Origin: an uncultured Alphaproteobacteria bacterium
GTDB taxonomy: Bacteria > Pseudomonadota > Alphaproteobacteria > Micropepsales > Micropepsaceae
Reading direction: 5' to 3'
NCBI GenBank assembly: GCA_903837555.1
Contig: CAILUV010000022.1
Location: 1-64,000, forward strand
DNA: 64,000 nt
The position numbers were made by a program, and so were the translations under genes. Of the stretch, positions 15,964 through 47,145 are shown one piece after another; position 1 is the stretch's first letter; each line of letters starts with the position of its first letter. The notes beneath the pieces are model-generated. The model did not search any database. It was not told the origin of the DNA and saw only the letters and a program-made list of their open reading frames with translations.

Positions 15964-17217
15964 TCACAGCATCTTGAATTCCGGTTCCAGGCGTTCCTTC
16001 ACCGCCGCCTCGTTCAGCTCGACGCCGATGCCCGGCGCGTTGGGAACCGCCAGATAGCCGTCGGCTTCCAGCTTCACCGGTTCGACCAGTTCGGTGAACA
16101 GCTTGTTCTCATAATGCGTGAATTCCTGAATCAGGAAGTTCGGGATCACGGCGCAGACATGGTTCATGCCCATGGTGCCCAGCGGCGTGCAGACGCCGTG
16201 CGGCGCCACTGCCACGTTATAGGTCTCGGCCATGGCAGCAATCTTCAGGCCCTCCATCAAGCCGCCGGTCTTGCAGAAGTCGGGTTGGATGATCGACAGC
16301 GCCTGCTTTTCCAAAAAAGGGCGAAAGCCCGCGCGGCCATAGATGTTCTCGCCCGCCGCGATGGGCACACGGCTGTTGTTGCGGATGCGGACCATGGATT
16401 CGACATTGTCGCTGGTGGTGGGTTCTTCCACGAACAGCGGACGGTACTGCTCGACCTGCTGGCAGATCTTAAGGCCGCCTTCCAGATCGTAATGGGCGTG
16501 CAGCTCCAGCCCCAGTTCTGTGTCCATGCCCAGTTCCTTGCGGAAGCCGGCAAAGAAATTGACGGTGTCGTCGACTTGGTTGTTGGTCAGGTGCAGGCCG
16601 AAGCGCTTGCGCTTCTCAAACCCCTTGTCGATCGACCAGTCGTCGTTGGAATAATCCAGGCCGACCTTCAGCGCCCGCAGCTTCAGCCGGTCCACCAGAT
16701 CGCGCCCGATCTTGGGGCTGGCGGCATGCATATAGACCGGCACGCGGTCGCGAATCTTGCCACCCAGCAACTGGTGAATGGGAAGCCCCAGCGCCTTGCC
16801 CGCCAGATCCCACAGCGCCATTTCGATGCCCGATGCCGCCGCCATATAGGGGCCGCCATGGCCCTTGATGAATACCACCGACGGCGGCCCGCCCAGGTTG
16901 ATGCGGCGATAGCCGTTGAAGTCGGCCATGATGCTCTGGATTTCCAGAGGGTCGCGGCCCTTCAGCATCACGTTGAAGTTGTTGTTGATGCTGTATTCGG
17001 CGCCCATCGTGTCGACGAACTCGCCGGTGCCGGTCAGGCCTTCCTCTGTATAGACGCGCACGAAGCGCGGATTGAACCCGCCCTTCAGCCGGATGGCGCG
17101 CACTTCGCGGATGCGAAGCTTGGGCGCGCGGCTGGTGCCCGCAGCCTTGGCGTCGCCCATCAGCGCCGCATAAAAAGCCGCGCCCAGGCTGCCACTGACA
17201 AAAGATCGGCGATCCAT
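15964..17217 (-). CDS. Exported enolase-superfamily sugar-acid dehydratase (mandelate racemase/galactonate dehydratase type)
   Basis: This is a 417-residue enolase-superfamily protein with an N-terminal export signal MDRRSFVSGSLGAAFYAALM ending near DAKA, twin-arginine in form. The capping domain (about 33-150) is followed by the barrel. The barrel holds Lys184 in ALKVG, metal ligands Glu239 (GLELHAHYD), Glu265 (FVEEP) and Glu290 (AAGEN), and His340 (VAPHG) as general acid. This pattern fits the mannonate/galactonate dehydratase branch. Normal members are cytosolic, so a periplasmic location would be unusual. It is divergent from an exported RraA-like protein at 17358, which suggests a dehydratase-aldolase pair. 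The palindromic element follows its stop. Substrate unknown. Confidence 0.82.
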   Translation of the reverse strand: MDRRSFVSGSLGAAFYAALMGDAKAAGTSRAPKLRIREVRAIRLKGGFNPRFVRVYTEEGLTGTGEFVDTMGAEYSINNNFNVMLKGRDPLEIQSIMADFNGYRRINLGGPPSVVFIKGHGGPYMAAASGIEMALWDLAGKALGLPIHQLLGGKIRDRVPVYMHAASPKIGRDLVDRLKLRALKVGLDYSNDDWSIDKGFEKRKRFGLHLTNNQVDDTVNFFAGFRKELGMDTELGLELHAHYDLEGGLKICQQVEQYRPLFVEEPTTSDNVESMVRIRNNSRVPIAAGENIYGRAGFRPFLEKQALSIIQPDFCKTGGLMEGLKIAAMAETYNVAVAPHGVCTPLGTMGMNHVCAVIPNFLIQEFTHYENKLFTELVEPVKLEADGYLAVPNAPGIGVELNEAAVKERLEPEFKML

Positions 17218-31028: not shown

Positions 31029-32345
31029 CTAGCGCGCCGTGACGCCCAGCGTCGGATCCTGCCGCGGGAAAGACGTCCAGCGCGAATCCAGCTTCACGTT
31101 TCCGGGCGGCGCATCCCAAGGCAGCGATTCCAGGCCGTTCAGATCGTACACGATCTTGCCATCCTTGATGGTGAGTTCCGCCACCAGCCGCTGGGTGCCC
31201 GCCACCTTGGTGTTGAGCATGTCGGTGTAACCAAAGCGGCCTTTCTGGATGCTGATCACCGCAACGTCGGCCACCGCCCCGGGCGACAGATTGCCCAGGT
31301 CTTCGCGCTGAATCTGGCGCGCAGGGTTCGACGTCATGCCTGCGATCACCTCGTTCAGCGTCATGCCGATGGTCATGAACTTGCTGGCCACGTTCAGGAT
31401 ATCCTTGGTGGCGCTGTTCATGCTCCCGGTGTGCAGGTCCGTGGAAAGAGAGTCCGGCTTGAAGCCCTGCTTGATCATCGGGATCGCCAGCATGAACTTG
31501 AAGCTGCCGCCGCCGGTGCCGGTGTCGAAATAGACGCCGCGCCCGCGCCCATCCACCAGCCCCTTGCTGGGTCCCTTGCTGGCCGGGTCCTGCTCCTGAC
31601 GCAGGCCAGAATAGACATGGGTATAAATATCGCCCGGGCGCAGCTTGGTGTTCAGCAAGTCATAAATCGGGCGTTCCGGCTTGTCGCTGCCGAAATCGAC
31701 CATCACCGGCAGATTGGCTTTGGTGCCGGCGATCACCGCCTCGTCGATCGGCTTCCATTCGGGGCCGTTGTAATGCGCGGCCTTGATGCCGACCACCACG
31801 CCCGGATAGCGCTGCGCCATCTTGGCGGTCGCTTCGCCGTCCATGTCGGCCTGATCCTGTTCCCACTTGCCGCCGCGCATGCCGTTGCCCACGATATTGA
31901 GCATCGCCAAAACACGGGTGCGGGAACGGTCGATGATCCGGTCCTTGAAATCCTCGAAGTTGCGCCAGCCGGCGCAACCGGCATCGACCACCGTGGTCAC
32001 GCCGCTGCGAAAGGTGAAACCATCCGGCGGCACGCTGAGATCGCCCGCGTAAGAGCCCTTTTCGCCCGTGCCGTTATAAACGTGGACATGCAGATCGATC
32101 AGCCCCGGCGTCACGTACAGCCCACGCGCGTCGATGATCTTGATCGCATCACCGGGCGACAACCCCGGCGCCACGCGCGCGATCTTGCCGTCCTTGATGG
32201 CAACATCCATCACGTGGTTGATGCGGTTCCTGGGGTCGATTACATGCCCGCCGCGCAGCAGTAGGTCATAGGCCGGAAGTGGCTGGGCCGAAGCCGCCAC
32301 GGTCAGCAGCGCCAACGCGGCGCAGGCCATGAGCCTGTTTTTCAT
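31029..32345 (-). CDS. Exported amidohydrolase/deacetylase-family metallohydrolase
   Basis: This is a 438-residue amidohydrolase with a Sec signal (MKNRLMACAALALLTVAASA). The metal site begins with GLIDLHVHVYNG (His-x-His), continues with a likely carbamylated Lys in VVGIKAAHYNG, the His in DIYTHVYSG and the Asp in LSTDLHTG. This pattern resembles the EF_0837/AHA_3915-type deacetylases, which often sit beside SelA-like PLP enzymes, as here. It may remove an acyl group from an amino acid or amino sugar. The ATG overlaps the PLP-enzyme stop by four bases (ATGA), so translation is coupled. Exported members of this branch are unexpected. Confidence 0.82.
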   Translation of the reverse strand: MKNRLMACAALALLTVAASAQPLPAYDLLLRGGHVIDPRNRINHVMDVAIKDGKIARVAPGLSPGDAIKIIDARGLYVTPGLIDLHVHVYNGTGEKGSYAGDLSVPPDGFTFRSGVTTVVDAGCAGWRNFEDFKDRIIDRSRTRVLAMLNIVGNGMRGGKWEQDQADMDGEATAKMAQRYPGVVVGIKAAHYNGPEWKPIDEAVIAGTKANLPVMVDFGSDKPERPIYDLLNTKLRPGDIYTHVYSGLRQEQDPASKGPSKGLVDGRGRGVYFDTGTGGGSFKFMLAIPMIKQGFKPDSLSTDLHTGSMNSATKDILNVASKFMTIGMTLNEVIAGMTSNPARQIQREDLGNLSPGAVADVAVISIQKGRFGYTDMLNTKVAGTQRLVAELTIKDGKIVYDLNGLESLPWDAPPGNVKLDSRWTSFPRQDPTLGVTAR

Positions 32346-33934
32346 ATCCGTACCGCCGTCCAGGGAACAATGCCGTATTCGCCCAGATCCACCGTGCCCG
32401 CCATAGTGTTACCATTAGCGGCACCCTTGAAGCGCCAGTCGATACCGCTCAATCCGCCAGTCGCCCGGCCGCTGCTGCCTGACACTGGCATGCGGCTGCG
32501 CATTTCCACCATGTTGGCGCGCACTGTGCCGGTGACGGTGCCCTGGTAGATTTCGCCATTTTGCGTGCCGGTGAGTTCGTTGCCCGTCTGCTGCAAAGTG
32601 AACTGCTGTTCGCCGACGCCGCGCTCATAGTTGATGGTGAAAGCCCAGCTTCCCGCTAGCGCGGCAGTGGCGCCCCTGGGCACCGGCGGGTTGGCGTAGA
32701 TGCCGGGATTGCTCAACGCCGCATAAAGTGCATCCGCCAGGATTCGCTCCTCGCCTGGGTCCATCATATAGGGCATGATAGTGATATGGCTAGCCATAAG
32801 ATTCGGACGGGTACCGGTGCCACCTTGTACCATAATGCGCGGCGTGCCCGCATCCAGCTTCGCAACCAGTTCGGTACCAGTGATGCCCAGCGCCTCAGCA
32901 TCCCAGTGAATGCGCAAGCGCGTGGACTTGTTGGAAAGATCCTCGGGCTGAAGATATTCAAACTGGGTTGACGCCAGCGGCTTCAGCCGCGCCTCGACAT
33001 GCTCCAGCCAGGTGCGCCACATACGCTGCTCGCCGTCATGATCGCGCTCATACCATTGGCGCACCGCCGCCAGCAGGCCCATAGATTCTTCTTTGGAGCA
33101 TTTCAGCGGCCGGCCGTAATTATGGTGGGGTGAGGCGTTGAAATAGGCTGCCTTGCATAGATCCTTCGGCCCCAGCAGCATACCGGAAGATTGCGGACCC
33201 CGCAGGCACTTGCCGCCGGAATAACCCACCATAGTCGCACCCGCAGCTAGGTGGATGTTGGGCTTGACCGGCTCTTCCGCTGCCGCGTCTACGAAGGTCG
33301 GAATATTTTTCTCTTTGGCAATTTCGCAGATGGCCTTTATTGGCAGCACGCTCTGGGCCTCTTCCGGCGAAGACAAGATATAGATCATCGCGGTGCGTGG
33401 ATTGATAGCGCGGCGAAGATCGTCGGCCGTCTCGACCTCGACCACCTCGGCGCCCACCATGCGCACGCCGATGTCATACTGATTGCGCGAGTGCTTGGGG
33501 ATGATCACCTGGTCCTTGGCTTTGATGTGTGGCAAGGCCTGGGCCTTTTCGACATCAGTACCGACCATGCAGGCCACCGTCGCCTGCACGATCGCCGCCG
33601 CACAGCCGTTGGTGGTGATACCCCAGGACGCCCCGGTCAGCTTGGCCAGTTCGGCGCCGATCCCGTCCATCAGTTCATCGAGATGGACGTAATAATGTGA
33701 AGCCTCGAACATCGCCTGCTTCACTTGCGGCAGCGAGCGTGAACCGGAAATGATGGTGTAGGTGCCCCGCGCGTTCAGGATGGGGCGCACGCCGATGCGG
33801 GTATAGAGGTTGTCGGTCTGGTTGACCGCATGGACCGGCAAGCCCTGCGCCGCTGCCGGTACCGCCACCAACACCACCGGCGCAACGGCGCCAGAGCTTT
33901 TGATAATGTCACGCCGCGACCACTTGCCAAACAT
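32342..33934 (-). CDS. Tat-exported SelA-fold PLP enzyme with extra C-terminal domain
   Basis: This is a 530-residue fold-type I PLP protein of the SelA-like/D-glucosaminate-6-phosphate ammonia-lyase group. Residues 1-30 form a twin-arginine signal (WSRRDIIKSSGA to AAAQG), fitting a cofactor-loaded enzyme exported folded. The PLP region has Asp216 in FVDAAAEE and the Schiff-base Lys242 in GYSGGKCLRGPQSSG. The common domain ends near residue 415 (GIYANPPVP). The last 110 residues, from ALAGSWAFTINYERG to the terminus, are beta-rich and not part of SelA proteins. The likely reaction is elimination of ammonia from an amino acid or amino-sugar acid, giving an enamine that RidA would hydrolyse. 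It lies 13 bp after ridA and overlaps the amidohydrolase gene. Confidence 0.8.
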   Translation of the reverse strand: MFGKWSRRDIIKSSGAVAPVVLVAVPAAAQGLPVHAVNQTDNLYTRIGVRPILNARGTYTIISGSRSLPQVKQAMFEASHYYVHLDELMDGIGAELAKLTGASWGITTNGCAAAIVQATVACMVGTDVEKAQALPHIKAKDQVIIPKHSRNQYDIGVRMVGAEVVEVETADDLRRAINPRTAMIYILSSPEEAQSVLPIKAICEIAKEKNIPTFVDAAAEEPVKPNIHLAAGATMVGYSGGKCLRGPQSSGMLLGPKDLCKAAYFNASPHHNYGRPLKCSKEESMGLLAAVRQWYERDHDGEQRMWRTWLEHVEARLKPLASTQFEYLQPEDLSNKSTRLRIHWDAEALGITGTELVAKLDAGTPRIMVQGGTGTRPNLMASHITIMPYMMDPGEERILADALYAALSNPGIYANPPVPRGATAALAGSWAFTINYERGVGEQQFTLQQTGNELTGTQNGEIYQGTVTGTVRANMVEMRSRMPVSGSSGRATGGLSGIDWRFKGAANGNTMAGTVDLGEYGIVPWTAVRI

Positions 33935-33947
33935 GCTTTAGCTCCTT

Positions 33948-34424
33948 TTAGATGTAGGCGATGACGTCAATTTCGACCAGCGAATTGCCCGGAATGCCGC
34001 CGGCCGGCGCAGTCGTGGTGCGCACCGGCGGTATCGGACCCCAGTCATAGGAACGATAAACTGCGTTCATCGCGTTATAGTCGCCCAGGTCATTGAGGAA
34101 GACGCTGACCTTCAGACACTTCTGCAGGGATGAACCGGCGTCGTTGAGGTTCTTGGACAGTTCGTCCAGCACCGTCTTGGTGTGCTCCTCGATGGTGCCG
34201 AAGTAGTGCGCCCCCACGCCCGACAGGAAGAGCATGTTGCCGTAGGCCACGGCGCGCGAGAACATCGGACGGGTGCCGTTCGGATTGGGCGGATAGGGCG
34301 AGCGCTTTTCCAGCCTAGGCTGCGCCTGGGCTTCACTGCCCTTGCCCAGCATGGCCGCGCCCGTGGCGGCAACGGCGGCGACCGCGCCCTTGGTCAGCAA
34401 TCCGCGCCGTGATTTATCTTCCAT
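33948..34424 (-). CDS. Tat-exported RidA-family enamine/imine deaminase
   Basis: This is a 158-residue RidA (YjgF) protein with an N-terminal twin-arginine signal, MEDKSRRGLLTKGAVAA to EAQAQ (about 36 residues). The RidA core shows FSRAVAYGNMLFLSG, VFLNDLGDYNAMNAVY, the substrate-binding Arg135 in PPVRTTT and Glu151 in LVEIDVIAYI. RidA proteins hydrolyse reactive enamines released by PLP lyases. It is the first gene of a three-gene operon with an exported SelA-like enzyme and an exported amidohydrolase, so enzyme and scavenger appear to be exported together. Confidence 0.88.
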   Translation of the reverse strand: MEDKSRRGLLTKGAVAAVAATGAAMLGKGSEAQAQPRLEKRSPYPPNPNGTRPMFSRAVAYGNMLFLSGVGAHYFGTIEEHTKTVLDELSKNLNDAGSSLQKCLKVSVFLNDLGDYNAMNAVYRSYDWGPIPPVRTTTAPAGGIPGNSLVEIDVIAYI

Positions 34425-35943: not shown

Positions 35944-37944
35944 TTAAGGCAGCCGGAAACCGACCAACCGCCCCGGCGGTCCCGACACCGCGATGGCAAT
36001 ATATTGGACGCCACTGTGCATGTAGGTCATGGGCGAACCCGTAACCCGCGCCGGAAGCGGCACGGCGCCGACTTCCTTGCCCGTGGCCTTGTCATAGGCG
36101 CGCAGCCAGCCACCCAGCTTGCCGTCAGGCCCGGTTGTCGCTGTGCCGTCACCCGCGATGATCAGGTTCTTGGTCACCAGCACGCCAACTTTTCCTTGCG
36201 ATCCGGTGCGCGGAATGGTCATGCCCTTGAGCAGCGGGTTGTTGCGCACCGCGTCGGGGGTTTCGCCATGTGGCGTCTGCCACACGATCTCGCCCTTGTT
36301 GAGATCGATGGCGGTGATCTGGCCATAAGGCGGCTTCATCAGCGGCATGCCCTGCACCGTCATGCGCGCGATGCCTGGGCCGGATCCGCCGTTCGGCGTG
36401 GCCGGCGGCGAAGCGGTGCCCAGCATCCAGCCCACATCGGTGACCGCCGGGTTGGCCGGGATATGCCCGGTCGGGCCGTAGGAGATGTTGGAGAAAATGT
36501 AGAATATGTTGGTTTCGGGATCGAACGCCCCGCCCGGCCATTGCGCGGCGCCATCGCCATTGGGATTCATGATGGTGCCCAGCGGCCGCGGCCATTTGCT
36601 GACCGAGGGCGGCGTGAACAACGGCCCGATGCGGTAATTGTCGACCAGCGATTCGGCTTCGGCGCGCAACTGCGGCGTGAAGTCGATCAGATATTCCTTG
36701 AAGAAGCCCTGGCGGTCGAACGGCGGCGGCTTGGTCACATGCGGCTGGGTGGCGGGATAATATTCGCCCGGTATGTCGCCCTTGGGCACCGGCCGGTCGA
36801 CGATCGGCCAGACCGGCTTGCCGGTGGCGCGGTCCAGCACATACAGCCAGGCCTGCTTGGTGGGCTGGGCCAGCGCCTTGATCTTTTTGCCGTTGACCGT
36901 GATGTCGCACAGGATCGGGGCGCAGGGAATGTCACGGTCCTGCACGCCGTGGCGCACGGTCTGGTAATGCCAGCGGCGCTTGCCGGTCTTCACATCCAGC
37001 GCCAGGATGCTTTCGCTGTAGAGATTGTCGCCGGGGCGTGCGCCGCCATACCAGTCGCCGGTCGGCGCTTCGATGCCGATATAGACCAGCCCCAGTTCGG
37101 GATCGGCGCTGTTCTGGCACCAGTTGCCGGTGTTGCCAGTATATTGGTCCGAACCGTTCAGCCAGGTGTCATGGCCGAACTCGCCCTTGCGCGGGATGGT
37201 GTGGAAAATCCACAACCGCTTGCCGGTGCGCGCGTCGAAGCCGCGAACATAGCCCTTGATATGGGTTTTGCGCGGAGACCGGCCCGGCAGGTGCGCCGCG
37301 CCCATCACGATCACATCGCCCACCACGAGCGGCGTGGAATGAAGCCCGATGTCGTGGCCGTCCGTCTTGCCCGACAGGTCAATCTCCTGGTCCATCTCCA
37401 GCTTGAGATCGACGATGCCCTTGTTGCCGAAATCGGGATCGGGAAGACCGGTGGCAGCATCCAGGCACACCATCTGATAACCGATGGTGACGAAGATGAT
37501 GCGTTCCTTGACGCCGTCGGTCCAATAGCTGAGGCCGCGGCCCGAACCGCGGCGCGGCGCGTTCATGCCGCGCTCGCCTTCATCGATATTGTATTTCCAC
37601 TTCAGCTCGCCGTTCGCGGCATCCAGCGCCACCGCGGCGCGGCGCGAGCCCGCCGTGAGATACAGCGTACCCTTCACCATCAGCGGCGTGGCCTGCAGGT
37701 TGGGATCGGGCACCGGCCCCAGATTGTCGGGCAGGAAGGTCCAGCTGTTGCGCAGATTTTTGAAATTGTCGGCGGTGATCTGGTCCAGCGCGCTGTAGCG
37801 CCAGCTACCCAGATTGCCGCCATAGGTGCGCCATTCGCCGCCCGCGGTGTCGTAGGCGGGCGCCGCCGCGAAGGCGGGCATTTGCGAGGCCGCGAGCGCT
37901 GCGATGCCGGTGGCGCACACGCCCCGGCGCGAAATCTTCCTCAC
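35944..37944 (-). CDS. Tat-exported PQQ-dependent dehydrogenase (glucose/quinate dehydrogenase family)
   Basis: This is a 666-residue quinoprotein with a signal MRKISRRGVCATGIAALAAS to AFAAA, twin-arginine in form. The mature protein is an eight-bladed propeller with the family blocks YGGNLGSWRYSALDQI, TPLMVKGTLYL, HDIGLHSTPLVVGD, KGYVRGFDARTGKRLW and the late GQITAIDLNKGEIVWQ and TTGPDGKLGGWLRAYDKATG. It lacks the N-terminal membrane helices of Gcd and any haem motif, so it needs an external acceptor. A haem c protein is encoded divergently at 38011. It would oxidise a sugar or polyol in the periplasm. No PQQ biosynthesis genes are in the window. Confidence 0.9.
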   Translation of the reverse strand: MRKISRRGVCATGIAALAASQMPAFAAAPAYDTAGGEWRTYGGNLGSWRYSALDQITADNFKNLRNSWTFLPDNLGPVPDPNLQATPLMVKGTLYLTAGSRRAAVALDAANGELKWKYNIDEGERGMNAPRRGSGRGLSYWTDGVKERIIFVTIGYQMVCLDAATGLPDPDFGNKGIVDLKLEMDQEIDLSGKTDGHDIGLHSTPLVVGDVIVMGAAHLPGRSPRKTHIKGYVRGFDARTGKRLWIFHTIPRKGEFGHDTWLNGSDQYTGNTGNWCQNSADPELGLVYIGIEAPTGDWYGGARPGDNLYSESILALDVKTGKRRWHYQTVRHGVQDRDIPCAPILCDITVNGKKIKALAQPTKQAWLYVLDRATGKPVWPIVDRPVPKGDIPGEYYPATQPHVTKPPPFDRQGFFKEYLIDFTPQLRAEAESLVDNYRIGPLFTPPSVSKWPRPLGTIMNPNGDGAAQWPGGAFDPETNIFYIFSNISYGPTGHIPANPAVTDVGWMLGTASPPATPNGGSGPGIARMTVQGMPLMKPPYGQITAIDLNKGEIVWQTPHGETPDAVRNNPLLKGMTIPRTGSQGKVGVLVTKNLIIAGDGTATTGPDGKLGGWLRAYDKATGKEVGAVPLPARVTGSPMTYMHSGVQYIAIAVSGPPGRLVGFRLP

Positions 37945-38298: not shown

Positions 38299-39552
38299 TC
38301 AGATCGGCGTCGCGTTCACGTCCCAGCCCCAGCCCGGCGTGCGAGTCGGGTGCATGTAGATGCCTTCGGGACCGCGGCTGATCTCATAATGTTGTTCGAA
38401 CATGTCATAGACCTGCTTGGGCCCGCCCGGTGGCGGCATGAACAGTTCGGCCAGCGACGCATTCACATGGCTGATCGACCAGTGCACCCCGCCATTGGTG
38501 CCGCCCGAATGCGGGATCACGTCGATGTCATAGCTTTCCGCCAGCGCGCCGATCTTGCGCAGCTCGGTCATGCCGCCGCACCAATTGACGTCCGGCTGCC
38601 AGATGGAGGCGCCATCGGCATCCAGCAGGCGGCGAAAGCCGTAACGGCCATAGACATGCTCGCCGGTGGCGATATGGGTGGAGGTGATCTTCTTGCGCAG
38701 GCGCCCGAAGCCTTCGAAATCATAAGGCGGCAGCGCTTCTTCCACCCATTTGACGCGATAGGGCTCCAGCAGCTTGCACATCTCGATGGTGTACTGCTCG
38801 TCCCACGACATCCAGCAGTCCAGCATGATGTCACCGTCGCGGCCCAGCGCCTTGCGGGCGCGCTGCACCAGTTCGACATTGGCGCGCTTGCCTTCCTCGC
38901 CGCGCGGCGGGCCCGCCGGCATGGCCAGCTTCAACCCCTTGAAGCCGAACTCGACGTGCTGCTCGATATCGTTGCCGGTGCAATAGGCCGGAATGCGTGG
39001 CTTGACCTGCCCGCCCATCAGCCGCCACACCGGCTCGCCAAGCGCCTTGCCGATAATGTCCCACAGCGCATTGTCGAAGCCGGAGATGGCGTTCATCGTC
39101 ACGCCCGCCTGGCCGTAGGACTCCGTCACGCGCCAGTTGATATCCCAGTTGCGTTCGATATCGAAGGGATCGCGCCCCATCATCAGCGGCGCCAGGTGGC
39201 CCATCACGATGGCGCCACCGCCCGCGCCGCCCTGGCCGTAGCCGACAATGCCCTTGTCGGTGGTGATCTCGACCGTGAAGCCCGGTACATTCTTGGCCGC
39301 GAATAGGCTACGGGTGGGGCGAAATTCCGGATAGATGTTGGGCGGCGCCGACACTTCCACGCCCTGCGTTGACCAGGAATTGGCGGCGGGCTTGAAGGCG
39401 GGCGGCGGGTTCTTAGGGGTCAGCCGCACCAACTTGATGTCGGTGATCTTGAGCTTGGACTTTTCCTGCGCCCAGGCCAGCGGGCAAAGCGCGATGCCAC
39501 TGGCCGCCAGCGCCGCCGCACCGGTCATAAATTGACGCCGTTTGATGCTCAT
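38299..39552 (-). CDS. Tat-exported RhmD-like enolase-superfamily dehydratase
   Basis: This is a 417-residue enolase-superfamily protein with a strong twin-arginine signal MSIKRRQFMTGAAALAASG to AWAQ (about 29 residues). The barrel retains a complete active site: Asp245 (IMLDCWMSWD), Glu271 (WVEEALPPYDF), Glu298 (ATGEHVYGRYGF) and His348 (VIPHSGG). The motif SIWQPDVNWCGGMTEL closely mirrors the cytosolic RhmD at 28878, so this looks like an exported paralogue acting on a rhamnonate-like sugar acid. The neighbouring PQQ dehydrogenase and cytochrome could produce that acid in the same compartment. I chose 39552 since the Tat signal starts there; the preceding 16 codons overlap the terminator side. 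Confidence 0.85.
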   Translation of the reverse strand: MSIKRRQFMTGAAALAASGIALCPLAWAQEKSKLKITDIKLVRLTPKNPPPAFKPAANSWSTQGVEVSAPPNIYPEFRPTRSLFAAKNVPGFTVEITTDKGIVGYGQGGAGGGAIVMGHLAPLMMGRDPFDIERNWDINWRVTESYGQAGVTMNAISGFDNALWDIIGKALGEPVWRLMGGQVKPRIPAYCTGNDIEQHVEFGFKGLKLAMPAGPPRGEEGKRANVELVQRARKALGRDGDIMLDCWMSWDEQYTIEMCKLLEPYRVKWVEEALPPYDFEGFGRLRKKITSTHIATGEHVYGRYGFRRLLDADGASIWQPDVNWCGGMTELRKIGALAESYDIDVIPHSGGTNGGVHWSISHVNASLAELFMPPPGGPKQVYDMFEQHYEISRGPEGIYMHPTRTPGWGWDVNATPI

Positions 39553-39598
39553 CCTGTCCCTCCCTGGAACGCCCGCCTTGTTGACGGGTCGCAAAAAC

Positions 39599-39632
39599 AA
39601 AAGAGCCCCGTCTTTTCAGACGGGGCTCTTTT
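39599..39632 (-). terminator. Strong hairpin terminator after the haem-PQQ dehydrogenase
   Basis: A perfect stem GAGCCCCGTCT with AGACGGGGCTC, extended by AAAA/TTTT, has a four-base loop. On the minus strand it is followed by TTTTGTTTTTG, 7 bp past the stop of the upstream gene. Confidence 0.88.
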
Positions 39633-39638
39633 CGTTGG

Positions 39639-41231
39639 TTACTTCGCCGGCACCAGCCGCGCGATCGATCCACCCACCGGATCGCCGTTGCGGTTCTGCA
39701 GCAGCAGATACAGATAACCGTCCGGTCCGGTGATCACTTCCCTGATACGGCCATGATCGCGGAACACGATTTCCTGCGACACGATCTGGCGGTCCTTGAT
39801 CTCCAGGCGGATCAGGCGCTGGCCCACCATGCCGGCGATGAACATGTTGTTCTTCCAGGCCGGGATGCGATCACCGGTATAGAAGGCAGTGCCGCCCGGA
39901 CCGATCGACGGATTGTAATAGGTCACCGGCGGAACCATGCCGACCGCTTCCTGGCGCAGGATGCCGGGCTCAAGGCCATAGGTCACCACGCCCCAGCCGT
40001 AGTTCTTGCCGGGTTCGACAATATTGATCTCGTCGCCGCCCACCGGGCCGTGCTCGGTTTCCCACAACAGGCCGGTCACAGGATCGAAGTCGATGCCTTC
40101 GGGATTGCGGTGACCGTAGCTCCAGATGCTGCCCAGCGCGCCCGGCGTGTTCACGAAGGGATTGTCCTTCGGGATGCTGCCGTCGAGATGGATGCGGTGA
40201 ATCTTGCCCAGCGGCGAGGCCAGGTTCTGCGAGGCCTGCATGTCGTGGCGCTCGCCCATGGTCCAGAACATGTGGCCCTTGTCATCAAACAGGAAGCGCG
40301 CGCCGTAATGGTCGGCCGGGAAGGTGAACAGGTCGTCCGCCGCCTTGAACAGCATCTGCTGCTCGGTCCATTCATTGTTGGCGTTGACCTTGCCGCGCAC
40401 GATGTAGGTCATGGTCGGCGGCGCCATCAGCGGCGCCTTTTCCGTGCCCGGTTCGTGGGTGAAGTTCGGTGGCACATCGGAATAGGCCAGATAGATCCAG
40501 CCATTCTTGGAGAAGTCCGGGTCCAGCGCGACATCGAGCATGCCGCCATCCTGGCGTTCGAACACCTTGGGCGTGCCCTTCACCGGCGCGCTGACCTTGC
40601 CGCTCTTGTCTAGGAAGCGCACCGCGCCCGAACGTTCGGTAAAGATCATGCGGCCGTCGGGCAGGAATTCCAGGCCCCAGGGCTGGTTGAAGCCCTTGGC
40701 CAGCACTTCCACCTTGAAGTTGGCCTTCTGGCTCTTGAACACCTTGCCGTGGGGATCGGGCGTATCGCCGATCTTGCGGTTCATCACGCCGCCGCGGATG
40801 CGCAGATAGGCGGGAATCTGGTTGATCTCTTCGGGCAGATACAGGGTCTTGAAGCCGTGATTGGCCACGCCCTGCGGACCATTGGCGGTGGTCTGAACGA
40901 TCTGGGCGTCGGTGCGGCTGTTCAGGAAGGGCTCGCTGAACAGGCTCTTGGCCTTGGCGCCCGGCTCGATGGTGTTGCCGTGGCAGGCGACGCAGTTGGT
41001 GGTCCACACTTCATGGGCACGGCTCTGCAGCAGCGCGGGCACCGGCGGCGCCAGCTTGCGCGGCGGCGGCACGGGCGGCGTGAAAGCAGCCTGGGCGGGC
41101 GCGGCGCCCTTCATCTGGTCGGCCGCGGTGTGCGCGGTGGCCGGCGGCGCAGCGGGCGTCACCGCCTGCTGGGCAATGGCGGCGCCGGCGACGCCGGTCA
41201 CCAGAAGAACGGACAGCAGAGACTTTTTCAC
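39639..41231 (-). CDS. Cytochrome c - PQQ sugar dehydrogenase (sGDH/sorbosone-type) fusion
   Basis: This is a 530-residue exported protein. A Sec signal (MKKSLLSVLLVTGVAGAAIAQ) is followed by a Pro/Ala-rich linker to residue about 65. A short cytochrome c domain with CVACH (80-84) extends to about 155. The C-terminal six-bladed propeller of the soluble glucose dehydrogenase type then begins FKVEVLAKGFNQPWGLEFLPDG. The catalytic block TEHGPVGGDEINIVEPGKNYGWG is intact. Fusion of haem and quinoprotein allows internal electron transfer. The start is GTG at 41231 with GGAG upstream. It lies directly after an aminotransferase gene (11 bp), so it may be the last gene of the operon starting at 45697. 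Confidence 0.88.
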   Translation of the reverse strand: MKKSLLSVLLVTGVAGAAIAQQAVTPAAPPATAHTAADQMKGAAPAQAAFTPPVPPPRKLAPPVPALLQSRAHEVWTTNCVACHGNTIEPGAKAKSLFSEPFLNSRTDAQIVQTTANGPQGVANHGFKTLYLPEEINQIPAYLRIRGGVMNRKIGDTPDPHGKVFKSQKANFKVEVLAKGFNQPWGLEFLPDGRMIFTERSGAVRFLDKSGKVSAPVKGTPKVFERQDGGMLDVALDPDFSKNGWIYLAYSDVPPNFTHEPGTEKAPLMAPPTMTYIVRGKVNANNEWTEQQMLFKAADDLFTFPADHYGARFLFDDKGHMFWTMGERHDMQASQNLASPLGKIHRIHLDGSIPKDNPFVNTPGALGSIWSYGHRNPEGIDFDPVTGLLWETEHGPVGGDEINIVEPGKNYGWGVVTYGLEPGILRQEAVGMVPPVTYYNPSIGPGGTAFYTGDRIPAWKNNMFIAGMVGQRLIRLEIKDRQIVSQEIVFRDHGRIREVITGPDGYLYLLLQNRNGDPVGGSIARLVPAK

Positions 41232-42568: not shown

Positions 42569-43961
42569 GGGCGTTTTCGAGCTTCTTGAGCGTGTTGGTG
42601 GTATCGTCAATCACCTGCTCCATGCAACCGGGCTGGAACAGGGAAATCTTGATCTGGTAGAGACCGGGATTTTTGTAGGTCTCGGCGGGCGCCAGATAGC
42701 CGACATTGCCGTTGACGATGTTGAGCATCACCACGGCATTGTTGGGAAAGCGCTTGCGCAATTCCTTCTGGAAAGCGCTGTAGGGTTCGGCCGGCGCGCC
42801 CACGAAAAAAGCATCGCCCACCTGCCACAGGGTCATGCGCACCTTGCGCGAGGTGCCATTGCCGACATCGCGGCGCACCATCAGCCGCCGCTCCAGCCGC
42901 TCCTTACGCGCGCGGTCGTTGCAGCCATGGATGGACTTGAGAAGCTCGGCCTCGGTCGGCAGATCTACGTAAGGCAGATCGGTGTCCGATACCGCGACCT
43001 GCAGCGTGGTGTTGGCGGGCCTGGGGCGCAGGCTCCAGCGGCCGAGGCGCGCGCCGGAATCCTCTATGCCGGCATAGGCGAATTCCTGTTCCGGCGGCAG
43101 CATGCCGGTCAGGGTGGAGAGCGCTGCATAGCCGAGCTGGCGGCCATTCTGGTCGGCGATGGCGGTGTCCGCTTCATAGGAACGCAGCGGTGTCATGTCG
43201 CCCGACGCGCCGTGCAGGAAGAAACAGGGCGCTCCATCGGTGTCACGCTCGACGATCTCGCGCATCGCCCCGTAATAGTCCGGCGAGATCAGCCGGTTGC
43301 CGCCTCCCAGCGAGACCGGATGGCAGGCATAGTTGACCAGCGTGGCGATGATCTTGCCTTTGGCATCGGTGATGCGCCCCACCAGCACGGTGTCGTCGGT
43401 GGGACCATCGGGATTGATGCCGCACAGGAAGGTTTCGCTGTCCAGCACCAGGTCGCGGTTGCGCGCCATGTCGCAGCGGCCGGTGGCCCAGGACATCACC
43501 GCCGGCTGCACATTCTCTTTAGAGCCCAGAATCGCGGCAACCGCGCCTTCCACGATCTTCTCGCGATAGGGCGGAATCAGATGGCCGCCTTCGCGGTCCA
43601 GGTTTTGCAAGTTGGAGGCCGGACCCGCATGGGTATGGCCCATATGGGTGATCAACTGATCGTTGCGGATGCCGGACTTTTCCAGAATCTGTTTTCGGAT
43701 TTCCATTTCATGGGCTGTGTCGAACCACCAGCCCAGGTCGAAACAGACCAGATAGAGCTCCAGCTTGGGATCGCCGCCGCGCAGGAACAGGCTGCTGACG
43801 ACCAGCGGGCGGTGAATGCCTTCCGCTGCATCGTGCTGGGCGCTGCCCCAGGAGCGGGCATAAATATTGCCGGGCGGCGTGATGTCGGCGCGGGCAACGC
43901 CCATCTCGCCTTTGAACTCGGACTGGCGGATCACCAGGTCGGACAGATTGCGCTTGTTCAT
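42561..43961 (-). CDS. Neutral/alkaline ceramidase-superfamily hydrolase
   Basis: This is a 466-residue protein of the neutral ceramidase superfamily. It opens with MGVARADITPPGNIYARSWG (residues 20-39), the typical N-terminal motif. The zinc region is THMGHTHAGPASN (His106, His109, His111), and later VNYACHPVSLGGGN and FLHGASGDMTPL supply further ligand and catalytic regions. No signal peptide is seen, so it is likely cytosolic, and it lacks the roughly 150-residue C-terminal domain of classical ceramidases. Many such proteins hydrolyse unknown amides. The ATG at 43961 forms TGATG with the symporter stop, so translation is coupled. Confidence 0.8.
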   Translation of the reverse strand: MNKRNLSDLVIRQSEFKGEMGVARADITPPGNIYARSWGSAQHDAAEGIHRPLVVSSLFLRGGDPKLELYLVCFDLGWWFDTAHEMEIRKQILEKSGIRNDQLITHMGHTHAGPASNLQNLDREGGHLIPPYREKIVEGAVAAILGSKENVQPAVMSWATGRCDMARNRDLVLDSETFLCGINPDGPTDDTVLVGRITDAKGKIIATLVNYACHPVSLGGGNRLISPDYYGAMREIVERDTDGAPCFFLHGASGDMTPLRSYEADTAIADQNGRQLGYAALSTLTGMLPPEQEFAYAGIEDSGARLGRWSLRPRPANTTLQVAVSDTDLPYVDLPTEAELLKSIHGCNDRARKERLERRLMVRRDVGNGTSRKVRMTLWQVGDAFFVGAPAEPYSAFQKELRKRFPNNAVVMLNIVNGNVGYLAPAETYKNPGLYQIKISLFQPGCMEQVIDDTTNTLKKLENAHG

Positions 43962-45697
43962 CAGCCACCTCCCGTGGGGAAGAAGATTTGCGAAAATATC
44001 AGCATGCAGGCACAGGTCAGCACAAGCAGCACGCCTGCCCAGAAGACCACGCTGTTGTACCAGCGGTCGCCCAGCCCCTGGGTGAGCGTGTCGCGGGAAT
44101 TCCAGAAGGTGACGGGATCGGTTTCGGTGCCGGGGCTGCGGGCCGGGTGCAGCAGGGTTCCCACCACGCAGAGCAGCAACGACACCGCCAAACAGACCGC
44201 CGCTTGGTTGGCGAAGGCGTAGTACCAGCTCGGCATGTCCACGCTGTAACCCACCAGCTTGATCAGCAGGCCCGTCGCCAGGCCGCCAATCACGGCCGCC
44301 ATGGCGCCCGCCCCATTGGTGCGCTTCCAGATCAGGCCCACCCACAGGATGGCGGCGAAGGGCGGCGCGACAAAGGCGTTCAGCGTCTGCATGTACTGGA
44401 AGATGCCGGCGCTTTGCTGGCTGACATAGATCGCCATGGCGATACCGGCCGCGATGGCGCCGACGCTGGCCCACATGCCAAAACGCACCCGCTGCTTTTC
44501 CGTCGCGTTCGGATTGATCAGCGGCACATAGATATCCAGCGTCAGGATCGCGGCGGTGGCGTTGACCACCGCGCTGACGGTGGCCTGCACCGCGCTGATC
44601 AGCACCGCCAGCAAAAGCCCTCGCAGACCCACCGGCAGGAATTCCTGCACCAAAAGCACAAAGCCGCCATCGGCGCGATGCACGGCGGTCTTCCAGTCGC
44701 CCAACAGGAATTCGGGATAGCGCGCGAACAGGATTAGGCCCGGCAGCACGACGATGAAGGGCAACAGAAGCTTGGCGTAACCGGCCATCAGCAGGCCCAT
44801 GCGAGCATGCCAGATGTCCTTGGCGCCCAGCACGCGCTGAACGATGAACTGGTTCATCACGCCGTACCAAACGCCCACCGCCAGCAAACCAAAGAACGTG
44901 CCGGTCCAGGGCGCCAGCGGATGATCCGGTGGCTGGAACACCGTCATGCGGTTGTATTCGCCATACTGGGTCAGATTGGGGGCGCTGGCTTCGACCGCCT
45001 GTTTCCACACGCCGGTCTCGGCCATGTTCATCTGCATCACATACATGAAGCCGTCGATGATGCCGCCCGATGGCGTCATGGCTTTCAGCGCGAAGATGGT
45101 GAGAAGGCCGACGCCGCCGATCTTCACCACCGCCGTCAAAAGGCCGGTCCAGGCCACGGTGTTGAGGCCGCCATAGACCGCCCAGCCACCGGCAAAGATG
45201 CCGGTGCCGATGATGCACCACAAAAGCGGCCAGCCGAAAAAGCCCGACAGGGCCAACCCGCCGGCATACATCACCGCCGCCATGAAAATGGAGATGTTGG
45301 CGAAGATGGTCAGCAGCGCGAAGACCTGACGCACGCCCTGGCCGAAGCGCTTGGCCAGATATTCCGGCACGGTGGTGATGCGCGCCTTGATTAAGAAGGG
45401 CACGAACAGAAATACGATGACGATTTCGATCAGCGAGGTCTGCCACTGGGCCAGCGCCGGCACCACGCCCTGCAAAAAGCTGATGCCCACCAGCCCCACG
45501 AAATGCTCGGTGGAGACGTTGGCGGCGACATAGGAACCGCCGACCACGTACCAGGGCAATGTGCGCCCCGCCAGGAAATAGTCGTTGGTTGATTTGCGCT
45601 CGCCCCGACCCGACCAGATGCCGACGGCGCACAGCAGGATCAAAAAAACGAAGAACTCGATGTAATCGAGCGGCAGCATTGCCAATGTCGAAGTCAC
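43961..45697 (-). CDS. Sodium:solute symporter (SSS family, SGLT-like)
   Basis: This is a 578-residue transporter with about fourteen helices. Family motifs include GRGERKSTNDYFLAGRTLPWY in the first loop, AANVSTEHFVGLVG in helix two, and GGLNTVAWTGLLTAVVKIGG near helices five to six. The late region QATVSAVVNATAAILTLDIY is typical of sugar- or myo-inositol-type SSS carriers. The start GTG at 45697 has AAGGGGG upstream; ATG 45679 is an alternative without a ribosome-binding site. It is first in an operon with a ceramidase-like amidase, an aminotransferase and possibly a haem-PQQ dehydrogenase. It likely imports the amide-containing substrate. Confidence 0.85.
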   Translation of the reverse strand: MTSTLAMLPLDYIEFFVFLILLCAVGIWSGRGERKSTNDYFLAGRTLPWYVVGGSYVAANVSTEHFVGLVGISFLQGVVPALAQWQTSLIEIVIVFLFVPFLIKARITTVPEYLAKRFGQGVRQVFALLTIFANISIFMAAVMYAGGLALSGFFGWPLLWCIIGTGIFAGGWAVYGGLNTVAWTGLLTAVVKIGGVGLLTIFALKAMTPSGGIIDGFMYVMQMNMAETGVWKQAVEASAPNLTQYGEYNRMTVFQPPDHPLAPWTGTFFGLLAVGVWYGVMNQFIVQRVLGAKDIWHARMGLLMAGYAKLLLPFIVVLPGLILFARYPEFLLGDWKTAVHRADGGFVLLVQEFLPVGLRGLLLAVLISAVQATVSAVVNATAAILTLDIYVPLINPNATEKQRVRFGMWASVGAIAAGIAMAIYVSQQSAGIFQYMQTLNAFVAPPFAAILWVGLIWKRTNGAGAMAAVIGGLATGLLIKLVGYSVDMPSWYYAFANQAAVCLAVSLLLCVVGTLLHPARSPGTETDPVTFWNSRDTLTQGLGDRWYNSVVFWAGVLLVLTCACMLIFSQIFFPTGGG

Positions 45698-45855: not shown

Positions 45856-47145
45856 GTGAACCACTGGTTGAAGTCCGGGCTGCTGTCTTTGGCCCTGCTG
45901 CCCGCCCCGCTGGCGGCACAGACCGTGGCCACTGCCCCGCTGCCGCCGGGCGAATCGCGCGAACACCCCGCCCCCGCGACCGCAGATGGCGCCTATTGGG
46001 ACCCACGCCCGCCGGAAACCGCCAAGAACGCGCCCGCCTTCAAGGAACAGACCCGCGCGCCGTTCAAAAGCGTGGCGCCGCACAAGGTCAGCCTTGTGAC
46101 CGATAAATTGGGCCAGGGCTGGAGCGTGGCGTTCCTGCCCTCCGGCAAGATGCTGGTCAGCGAGAAGCTGCCGGGCGCGCTGCGCTTCCTGGATGCGGGC
46201 GGCACGCCGTCGGCGGCGCTGGCGGGTCTGGAAAACCTGGCGGGGGCCGGCCACAAGCTCGGCCTGCTGGAAGTGGTGCTGGCGCCGGACTTCGCCAAAA
46301 GCCGCCGCATCTATTTCAGCTTCTTCGAAGTCGTCGAGAAAGGCTTCTGGAGCAACACCAATCTCGCCTATGCGACGCTGGATGAAGACGGCGCCAAAGT
46401 CAGCGACGTGAAGGTGATCTTCAGGGGCTCGCCGGCCGTGCCGCTGAACAACTCGTCCAGCAAGCAGGGCGGGCGCATCGTGTTCGGCAAGGACGGCTCG
46501 ATCTTCCTGATCATGGGCGACCGCGACGCCAACCGGCATTGGGACTACATGGCCATGCTGGCGCAGAAGCTGGACAACCATCTGGGCAAGGTGGTGCACC
46601 TGATGCCCGAAGGCGCGCCCGCCAAGGACAATCCGTTTTTGAAGACCAAGGGCGCGCTGCCGGAAATCTGGGCCTATGGCCTGCGCAGTCCGCAGGGCCT
46701 GGCGATCGATCCCAAGACCGGGCGGATGTGGGAAGTCGAACATGGCCCGCGCGGTGGTGACGAGCTCAACATCATCAAGCGCGGCGCCAATTATGGCTGG
46801 CCGGTGATCACCCGCGGCATCAATTATCCGGGCGAACCGATCGGCGAAGGCGTTGCCAAGAAGGGCATGGAGCAGCCTGCCTATTACTGGGATCCGGTGA
46901 TCGGCACCTCGGCCATGGCTTTCTATCAGGGCGACCTTTTCCCGGCCTGGAAGAACAGCCTGTTCGTGGCGGGCCTGCGCGGCGTCGGCATCTACCGGCT
47001 GGAAATCAGGAACGACAAGGTGGTGGCCGAAGAACCGATGCTGACCGACCAGAAAGCGCGCATCCGCGATGTGAAGGTCGGCCCCGACGGCGCGGTCTAT
47101 GCCCTGGCCGAGCGCGGCAAGCTGTTCAAGCTCACGCCGCCCTAG
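45856..47145 (+). CDS. Exported PQQ-dependent sugar (sorbosone-type) dehydrogenase
   Basis: This is a 429-residue protein with a Sec signal (MNHWLKSGLLSLALLPAPLAAQ) and a single soluble-glucose-dehydrogenase propeller. Recognisable blocks are LGQGWSVAFLPSGKMLVSEK, GGRIVFGKDGSIFLIMGDRD and the catalytic VEHGPRGGDELNIIKRGANYGW. The closing blade reads DVKVGPDGAVYALAERGKLF. It is related to the haem-fused enzyme at 39639 but lacks the haem domain. It is monocistronic and ends 8 bp before a purU remnant. It would oxidise a periplasmic aldose or aldehyde and pass electrons to a separate acceptor such as the cytochromes at 38011 or 50011. Confidence 0.9.
   Translation: MNHWLKSGLLSLALLPAPLAAQTVATAPLPPGESREHPAPATADGAYWDPRPPETAKNAPAFKEQTRAPFKSVAPHKVSLVTDKLGQGWSVAFLPSGKMLVSEKLPGALRFLDAGGTPSAALAGLENLAGAGHKLGLLEVVLAPDFAKSRRIYFSFFEVVEKGFWSNTNLAYATLDEDGAKVSDVKVIFRGSPAVPLNNSSSKQGGRIVFGKDGSIFLIMGDRDANRHWDYMAMLAQKLDNHLGKVVHLMPEGAPAKDNPFLKTKGALPEIWAYGLRSPQGLAIDPKTGRMWEVEHGPRGGDELNIIKRGANYGWPVITRGINYPGEPIGEGVAKKGMEQPAYYWDPVIGTSAMAFYQGDLFPAWKNSLFVAGLRGVGIYRLEIRNDKVVAEEPMLTDQKARIRDVKVGPDGAVYALAERGKLFKLTPP

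Follow-up and report, generated by a model that had tools for sequence, protein, structure and literature searches.

A window of 64,000 nucleotides, the whole stretch of DNA analysed here (contig CAILUV010000022.1 of an uncultured alphaproteobacterium of the Micropepsaceae), carries on its minus strand, read from position 34424 to 31029, the genes of a RidA-family protein, a SelA-like pyridoxal phosphate (PLP) enzyme and an amidohydrolase, in that order, and all three products begin with a predicted export signal (Table 1). On balance it is probable that this trio constitutes an exported three-enzyme degradation module, in which an N-acylated 2-amino-3-hydroxy acid would undergo N-deacylation, ammonia elimination and imine hydrolysis in the periplasm; the reactions, the substrate class and the order of the steps are proposed from the sequences. 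The three activities are already known together as the cytosolic Ong route, and what appears to be new is the existence of conserved, export-tagged versions of the deacylase, the PLP enzyme and RidA. Relatives of these enzymes are usually cytosolic, and the cytosol is commonly regarded as the place of central catabolic steps that involve PLP and reactive imines. If the predicted export is true, some soil and freshwater Acidobacteriota and Alphaproteobacteria release ammonia from acylated amines beyond the inner membrane, and the genome-based view of nitrogen uptake would change, because automated annotation would place the trio enzymes in cytosolic pathways. The cultured genera Granulicella, Edaphobacter and Bryocella make the trio a cheap and testable case.

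Table 1. Positions of the trio genes, their junctions and the predicted signals and domain of their products within the window
Feature	Position	Strand	Basis and remarks
RidA/YjgF-family protein, 158 aa, predicted exported	33948..34424	-	PF01042; R135/E151 by alignment; first in conserved trio; proposed imine/enamine hydrolase
DgaE/SelA-like fold-type I PLP enzyme, 530 aa, predicted exported	32342..33934	-	TIGR01437; relatives 7LC0, 8T7J; K242, D216; proposed 2-amino-3-hydroxy-acid ammonia-lyase
PRK09237-type (cog3964) amidohydrolase/deacetylase, 438 aa, predicted exported	31029..32345	-	NF006689; closest solved structure 2OGJ; metal residues; proposed N-deacylase
13-bp gap with Shine-Dalgarno of PLP gene	33935..33947	-	AAAAGGAGCTAAAGC 5' of ATG
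ATGA overlap (4 bp) of PLP and amidohydrolase genes	32342..32345	-	Sequence
Tat-type signal of RidA	34323..34424	-	Translation; SRRGLLTK, hydrophobic stretch, AQA/Q cleavage; kept in every RidA homologue of trio loci
Tat-type signal of PLP enzyme	33848..33934	-	SRRDIIKS ... AAA/Q cleavage; W5, R7, R8, S14 invariant in 19 sequences
Sec-type signal of amidohydrolase	32286..32345	-	Translation; MKNR, hydrophobic stretch, ASA/Q cleavage; kept in trio loci; relatives from other families of Alphaproteobacteria lack it
C-terminal eight-stranded beta-barrel of PLP enzyme, residues 428-529	32348..32653	-	AlphaFold2, modelled alone, pLDDT 85

Gene order, export signals and their conservation

The gene coordinates, the strand, the 13-bp gap and the ATGA overlap all match the original prediction, which had also assigned twin-arginine translocation (Tat) signals to RidA and the PLP enzyme and a Sec signal to the amidohydrolase; these assignments are borne out by the N-termini and by conservation across phyla. 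Signals on the trio were called from motif, hydrophobicity and conservation, with cleavage sites placed by eye. The RidA-family protein (start MEDKSRRGLLTKGAVAAVAATGAAML...AQAQ) reads MEDK-SRRGLLTK-GAVAAVAATGAAML...AQA/Q, the PLP enzyme (start MFGKWSRRDIIKSSGAVAPVVLVAVPAAAQ) MFGKW-SRRDIIKS-...PVVLVAV...AAA/Q and the amidohydrolase (start MKNRLMACAALALLTVAASAQ) MKNR-LMACAALALLTVAA-SA/Q. A good Shine-Dalgarno sequence precedes the start codon of the PLP gene (AAAAGGAGCTAAAGC-ATG). In all three proteins the alignment with solved cytosolic relatives starts past an N-terminal extension, i.e., from residue 40 of the PLP enzyme (residue 2 of DgaE, 7LC0), residue 26 of the amidohydrolase (residue 3 of 8je0) and residue ~50 of RidA (residue 15 of 2dyy). 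RidA and the PLP enzyme have the twin arginine, the hydrophobic stretch and the A-x-A-like site of a Tat substrate and TatC is encoded in the genome (a 2.46-Mb assembly of 101 contigs, 98% complete); for all three proteins, export is predicted from the signals.

Scanning 84,980 species genomes yielded 24 loci. The three genes stand in the same order in 20 of these (L004-L023), which come from metagenome-assembled genomes (MAGs) of Alphaproteobacteria and from the Acidobacteriaceae genera Edaphobacter, Granulicella and Bryocella; L024 and L025 stem from a single MAG, on two contigs that each carry part of the trio, and L027 is a weak partial match only. All three signals recur in the trio loci, whose carriers are soil and freshwater bacteria of two phyla. 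Where the trio gene order is present, the RidA and PLP homologues examined have, without exception, the twin arginine and a hydrophobic stretch; their amidohydrolase partners retain a hydrophobic N-terminus that in most cases ends close to A-Q. Further Acidobacteriota loci have an exported-type PLP enzyme beside an exported-type RidA or amidohydrolase. Between the window and L004/L005 the RidA and PLP signal codons show 36 synonymous-only and 13 nonsynonymous changes and those of the amidohydrolase 6 and 13, respectively, and the short amidohydrolase signal is under weaker constraint than the other two. Because gene order and signals are shared by some 20 loci across two phyla, the changes in the RidA and PLP signals are mostly synonymous and TatC is present, the predicted signals are taken to be a conserved trait and no artefact of start-site assignment.

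The module had been described as complete, and the three genes do form a conserved set, but the Acidobacteriaceae version is larger. There the operon order is outer-membrane protein (CarboxypepD_reg/beta-barrel type), RraA-like aldolase with a signal, second Tat PLP enzyme, RidA, PLP enzyme and deacylase, and a response regulator is also present. Export is an uncommon feature for RraA. Members of the RraA-like aldolase family that bear N-terminal signals were observed in both phyla (L060, L061; L009:5241-6059); two Alphaproteobacteria with the trio have exported RraA homologues elsewhere in the genome, and the window genome has distant RraA homologues only. Some Alphaproteobacteria have iron-uptake-like genes next to the trio (TonB receptor, PKHD hydroxylase, PepSY-TM); because none of these was observed in the operon of the Acidobacteria, they are probably just neighbours and not partners. 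No exported RidA/PLP/amidohydrolase operon was found in the open-access literature, which does not show that none has been described.

Homologues without signals, named in the original prediction as evidence that would speak against it, do exist in other alphaproteobacterial families, whereas close homologues keep their signals. All 16 amidohydrolase relatives sampled from such families start at the catalytic core and lack a signal. Signals on 94 PLP proteins were scored with a simple rule, three of the calls being adjusted manually; 64 of the proteins bear a signal and 30 do not. Their tree requires only two changes of label, with the window enzyme placed among the 38 members of a signal-bearing clade (SH-aLRT 99). 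Signal-less amidohydrolase-PLP pairs (L141, L142) and a SelA-like gene (L143) adjoin ATP-binding cassette (ABC) importers of the SBP_bac_5/oligopeptide type. We read this as two strategies, the cytosolic type importing first and degrading inside, the exported type degrading outside.

The three enzymes and the proposed route

The amidohydrolase exceeds the cut-off of NF006689/PRK09237 (403.6 bits against 371) and retains the metal-site residues H86, H88, K188, H191, H243 and D303 (HxH, Lys, His, His, Asp); D-aminoacylases match it over residues ~23-91 only. Its closest solved structure is 2OGJ (Atu3266), an enzyme with a preference for R-configured substrates, which would fit D-glucosaminate. 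It resembles the cog3964/PRK09237 enzymes (2OGJ, EF_0837) in its model score, in its metal site and in having a SelA-like PLP neighbour, as in the cytosolic L141 and L142, and differs from the relatives sampled in other alphaproteobacterial families by its Sec signal.

The PLP enzyme shares the DgaE fold, and its K242 and D216 align with the catalytic lysine K213 and the pyridine-nitrogen aspartate D189 of 7LC0; it differs from DgaE by a Tat signal, an extra C-terminal barrel and scores far below the family cut-offs (see below). A fold search with the barrel gave an avidin-like fold, nearest to the alpha subunit of quinohemoprotein amine dehydrogenase (QHNDH), and no clear functional relative beyond that. 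The barrel is not tied to export, since signal-less PLP relatives have it too. Small stand-alone proteins of ~100 aa that resemble it were seen at L037 and L039. The genome's second SelA-like enzyme (L002, G000:C43:41930-43069) has a twin-arginine signal (SRRGFFFWTRNALAAAG) and no C-terminal barrel, and falls into one group with the second PLP enzyme that the Acidobacteria operon encodes. PvdN, a PLP enzyme of pyoverdine maturation that is exported by Tat to the periplasm, provides a precedent for a Tat-exported PLP enzyme, although it belongs to another PLP subfamily and has a biosynthetic role.

The RidA-family protein matches PF01042 (59.4 bits, cut-off 27.3, E=4.6e-16), carries R135 and E151 at the Rid catalytic positions and scores 57.5 bits with TIGR00004, under the 106.25-bit cut-off, which marks it as a divergent Rid protein. 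Signals are present on five of the seven RidA-family proteins of the genome and absent from two, so that exported RidA is a wider lineage trait and not special to the trio, and this part of the original prediction is less exceptional than it had seemed. Four other RidA-family proteins have Sec-type N-termini (C79:13553-13906, C22:55870-56193 in the window, C32:24546-24890 and C32:25541-25831; L147, L149, L151 and L153).

In the Ong pathway of Pseudoalteromonas, made up of the deacetylase OngB, the PLP deaminase OngC and the RidA-family OngD (PMC9537276, PMC12017989), N-acetylglucosaminate is converted to 2-keto-3-deoxygluconate (KDG), acetate and ammonia, all three genes, that of RidA included, are required for growth on N-acetylglucosaminate, and OngB and OngC are predicted to be cytoplasmic (PMC9537276). 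The window likewise clusters deacetylase, PLP enzyme and RidA genes, and the catalytic residues of all three are intact. Because the same three activities make up the Ong route, the chemistry originally proposed (deacylation, PLP-dependent elimination and RidA action) is sound. OngB is however a D-aminoacylase-type subtype V amidohydrolase and not a PRK09237/cog3964 enzyme, OngC is of fold-type III and the window PLP enzyme of fold-type I, and predicted export signals are carried by all three window proteins. Direct homology to OngB and OngC is ruled out by the structure-relative and fold comparisons, and since the deacylase and PLP families differ, the resemblance is one of function and not of membership.

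In the proposed route a small R/D-configured 2-acylamino acid would first lose its N-linked acyl group, probably acetyl, to the Sec-exported amidohydrolase. The 2-amino-3-hydroxy acid thus set free would most likely be a 2-amino-2-deoxy-aldonate, for instance D-glucosaminate; phosphorylated substrates are unlikely to occur outside the cell. From this acid the SelA-fold PLP enzyme, exported by Tat with its cofactor loaded, would eliminate ammonia, and the enamine/imine formed would give a 2-keto-3-deoxy acid, with the Tat-exported RidA accelerating imine hydrolysis and thereby also releasing ammonia. The keto acid may then be imported, and the genome encodes a KDG-kinase-like protein that scores below the model cut-off; in Acidobacteriaceae it may be cut outside the inner membrane by the exported RraA-like aldolase. 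A bolder reading, less likely than not, is that amino acids or amino-sugar acids are degraded by a route that is extracytoplasmic throughout, from outer-membrane uptake over deacylation, ammonia elimination and imine hydrolysis to RraA-like aldol cleavage (in Acidobacteriaceae), all in the periplasm. Nothing but ammonia, acetate and keto acids of small size would then cross the inner membrane, and the route would be the exported counterpart of the cytosolic pairs of deacylase and PLP genes that accompany ABC importers.

Substrate and competing explanations

The alphaproteobacterial trio is often linked to genes for L-rhamnonate, galactarate and glucarate dehydratases, and within the genus rhamnonate dehydratase is found in six of the eight members that carry the PLP gene as compared to two of the 29 that do not (kinship ignored). 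This context favours sugar acids as the substrate class, and the KDG-kinase-like protein also speaks for them. Several findings weigh against the proposed module and its substrate. The L026 locus has no adjacent RidA gene. The PLP enzyme scores below the cut-offs of TIGR01437 selA_rel (E=1.4e-44, 152.5 against 385.3 bits) and NF047797 (130.7 against 600 bits), which rules it out as DgaE proper and places it in a sister subfamily, and it is equally close to DgaE (7LC0) and Cap15 (8T7J) by sequence and fold. The importers beside the cytosolic counterparts are peptide-type and not sugar-type. Finally, GH20 hexosaminidase was found in none of the eight PLP-gene carriers of the genus, this genome included, as compared to 15 of the 29 others (Fisher p=0.012, kinship ignored), which weakens chitin as the substrate source. 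The substrate originally suggested, an acylated amino acid or amino-sugar acid, and the nitrogen-scavenging role suggested with it are both putative.

A rather unlikely alternative is that the same exported module acts on an N-acyl D-amino acid (N-acetyl-D-serine, D-threonine) or a peptide-like compound. Such a substrate would suit the peptide-type importers beside the signal-less counterparts, and the absence of GH20 and the deamination of D-serine and D-threonine by OngC (PMC9537276) agree with it; against it stand the sugar-acid dehydratase genes adjoining the alphaproteobacterial trio, the co-occurrence with rhamnonate dehydratase and the glucosaminate-6-phosphate ammonia-lyase, which is among the two solved structures nearest to the PLP enzyme.

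It is improbable that the PLP enzyme is a Cap15-like O2-dependent oxidase or oxygenase, with RidA guarding the periplasm against imine or peroxide by-products. Cap15, whose fold is the closest jointly with that of DgaE, is O2-dependent and acts on a beta-hydroxy-alpha-amino acid (PMC7497351), and because the PLP family also holds this enzyme the ammonia-lyase activity is only probable. The pairing with a deacylase and RidA nevertheless fits the Ong deamination route, and the family model takes its name from the DgaE ammonia-lyase. Cap15 is biosynthetic and is not known to carry a signal or to have RidA or deacylase partners.

There is likewise little probability that the signals are real and the enzymes serve detoxification or cell-envelope remodelling, e.g., of peptidoglycan-derived acylated amino compounds, instead of nitrogen or carbon scavenging: the several exported RidA homologues of the genome suggest a general periplasmic need, but catabolic genes surround the trio, and in Acidobacteriaceae its cluster includes two-component regulators and a beta-barrel protein of the outer membrane. 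That the starts were mis-called, with true starts downstream and cytosolic proteins, is highly improbable given the placement of the Shine-Dalgarno sequence, and such an artefact is ruled out by the SRR motifs and hydrophobic stretches kept across phyla and by the substitution pattern of the RidA and PLP signals.

Neighbouring genes

The genes around the trio are catabolic, i.e., Lra1 L-rhamnose dehydrogenase, L-rhamnonate dehydratase, RhaT, RhaM and the glucarate and galactarate dehydratases, and dehydrogenases of the PQQ and GSDH types lie upstream. Three exported aldose-oxidising candidates are encoded nearby, a PQQ propeller (35944-37944), a GSDH protein with a cytochrome-like domain (39639-41231) and a second GSDH protein (45856-47145), and the first two are kept upstream of the trio in L004 and L005. 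An SSF sodium:solute symporter is encoded at 43961-45697; the N-acetylglucosaminate importer of the Ong system is an SSF family transporter (PMC9537276). Two MR_MLE (enolase-superfamily) dehydratase-like proteins (38299-39600 and 15964-17217) have twin-arginine N-termini, which suggests that more sugar-acid chemistry takes place outside the cytosol.

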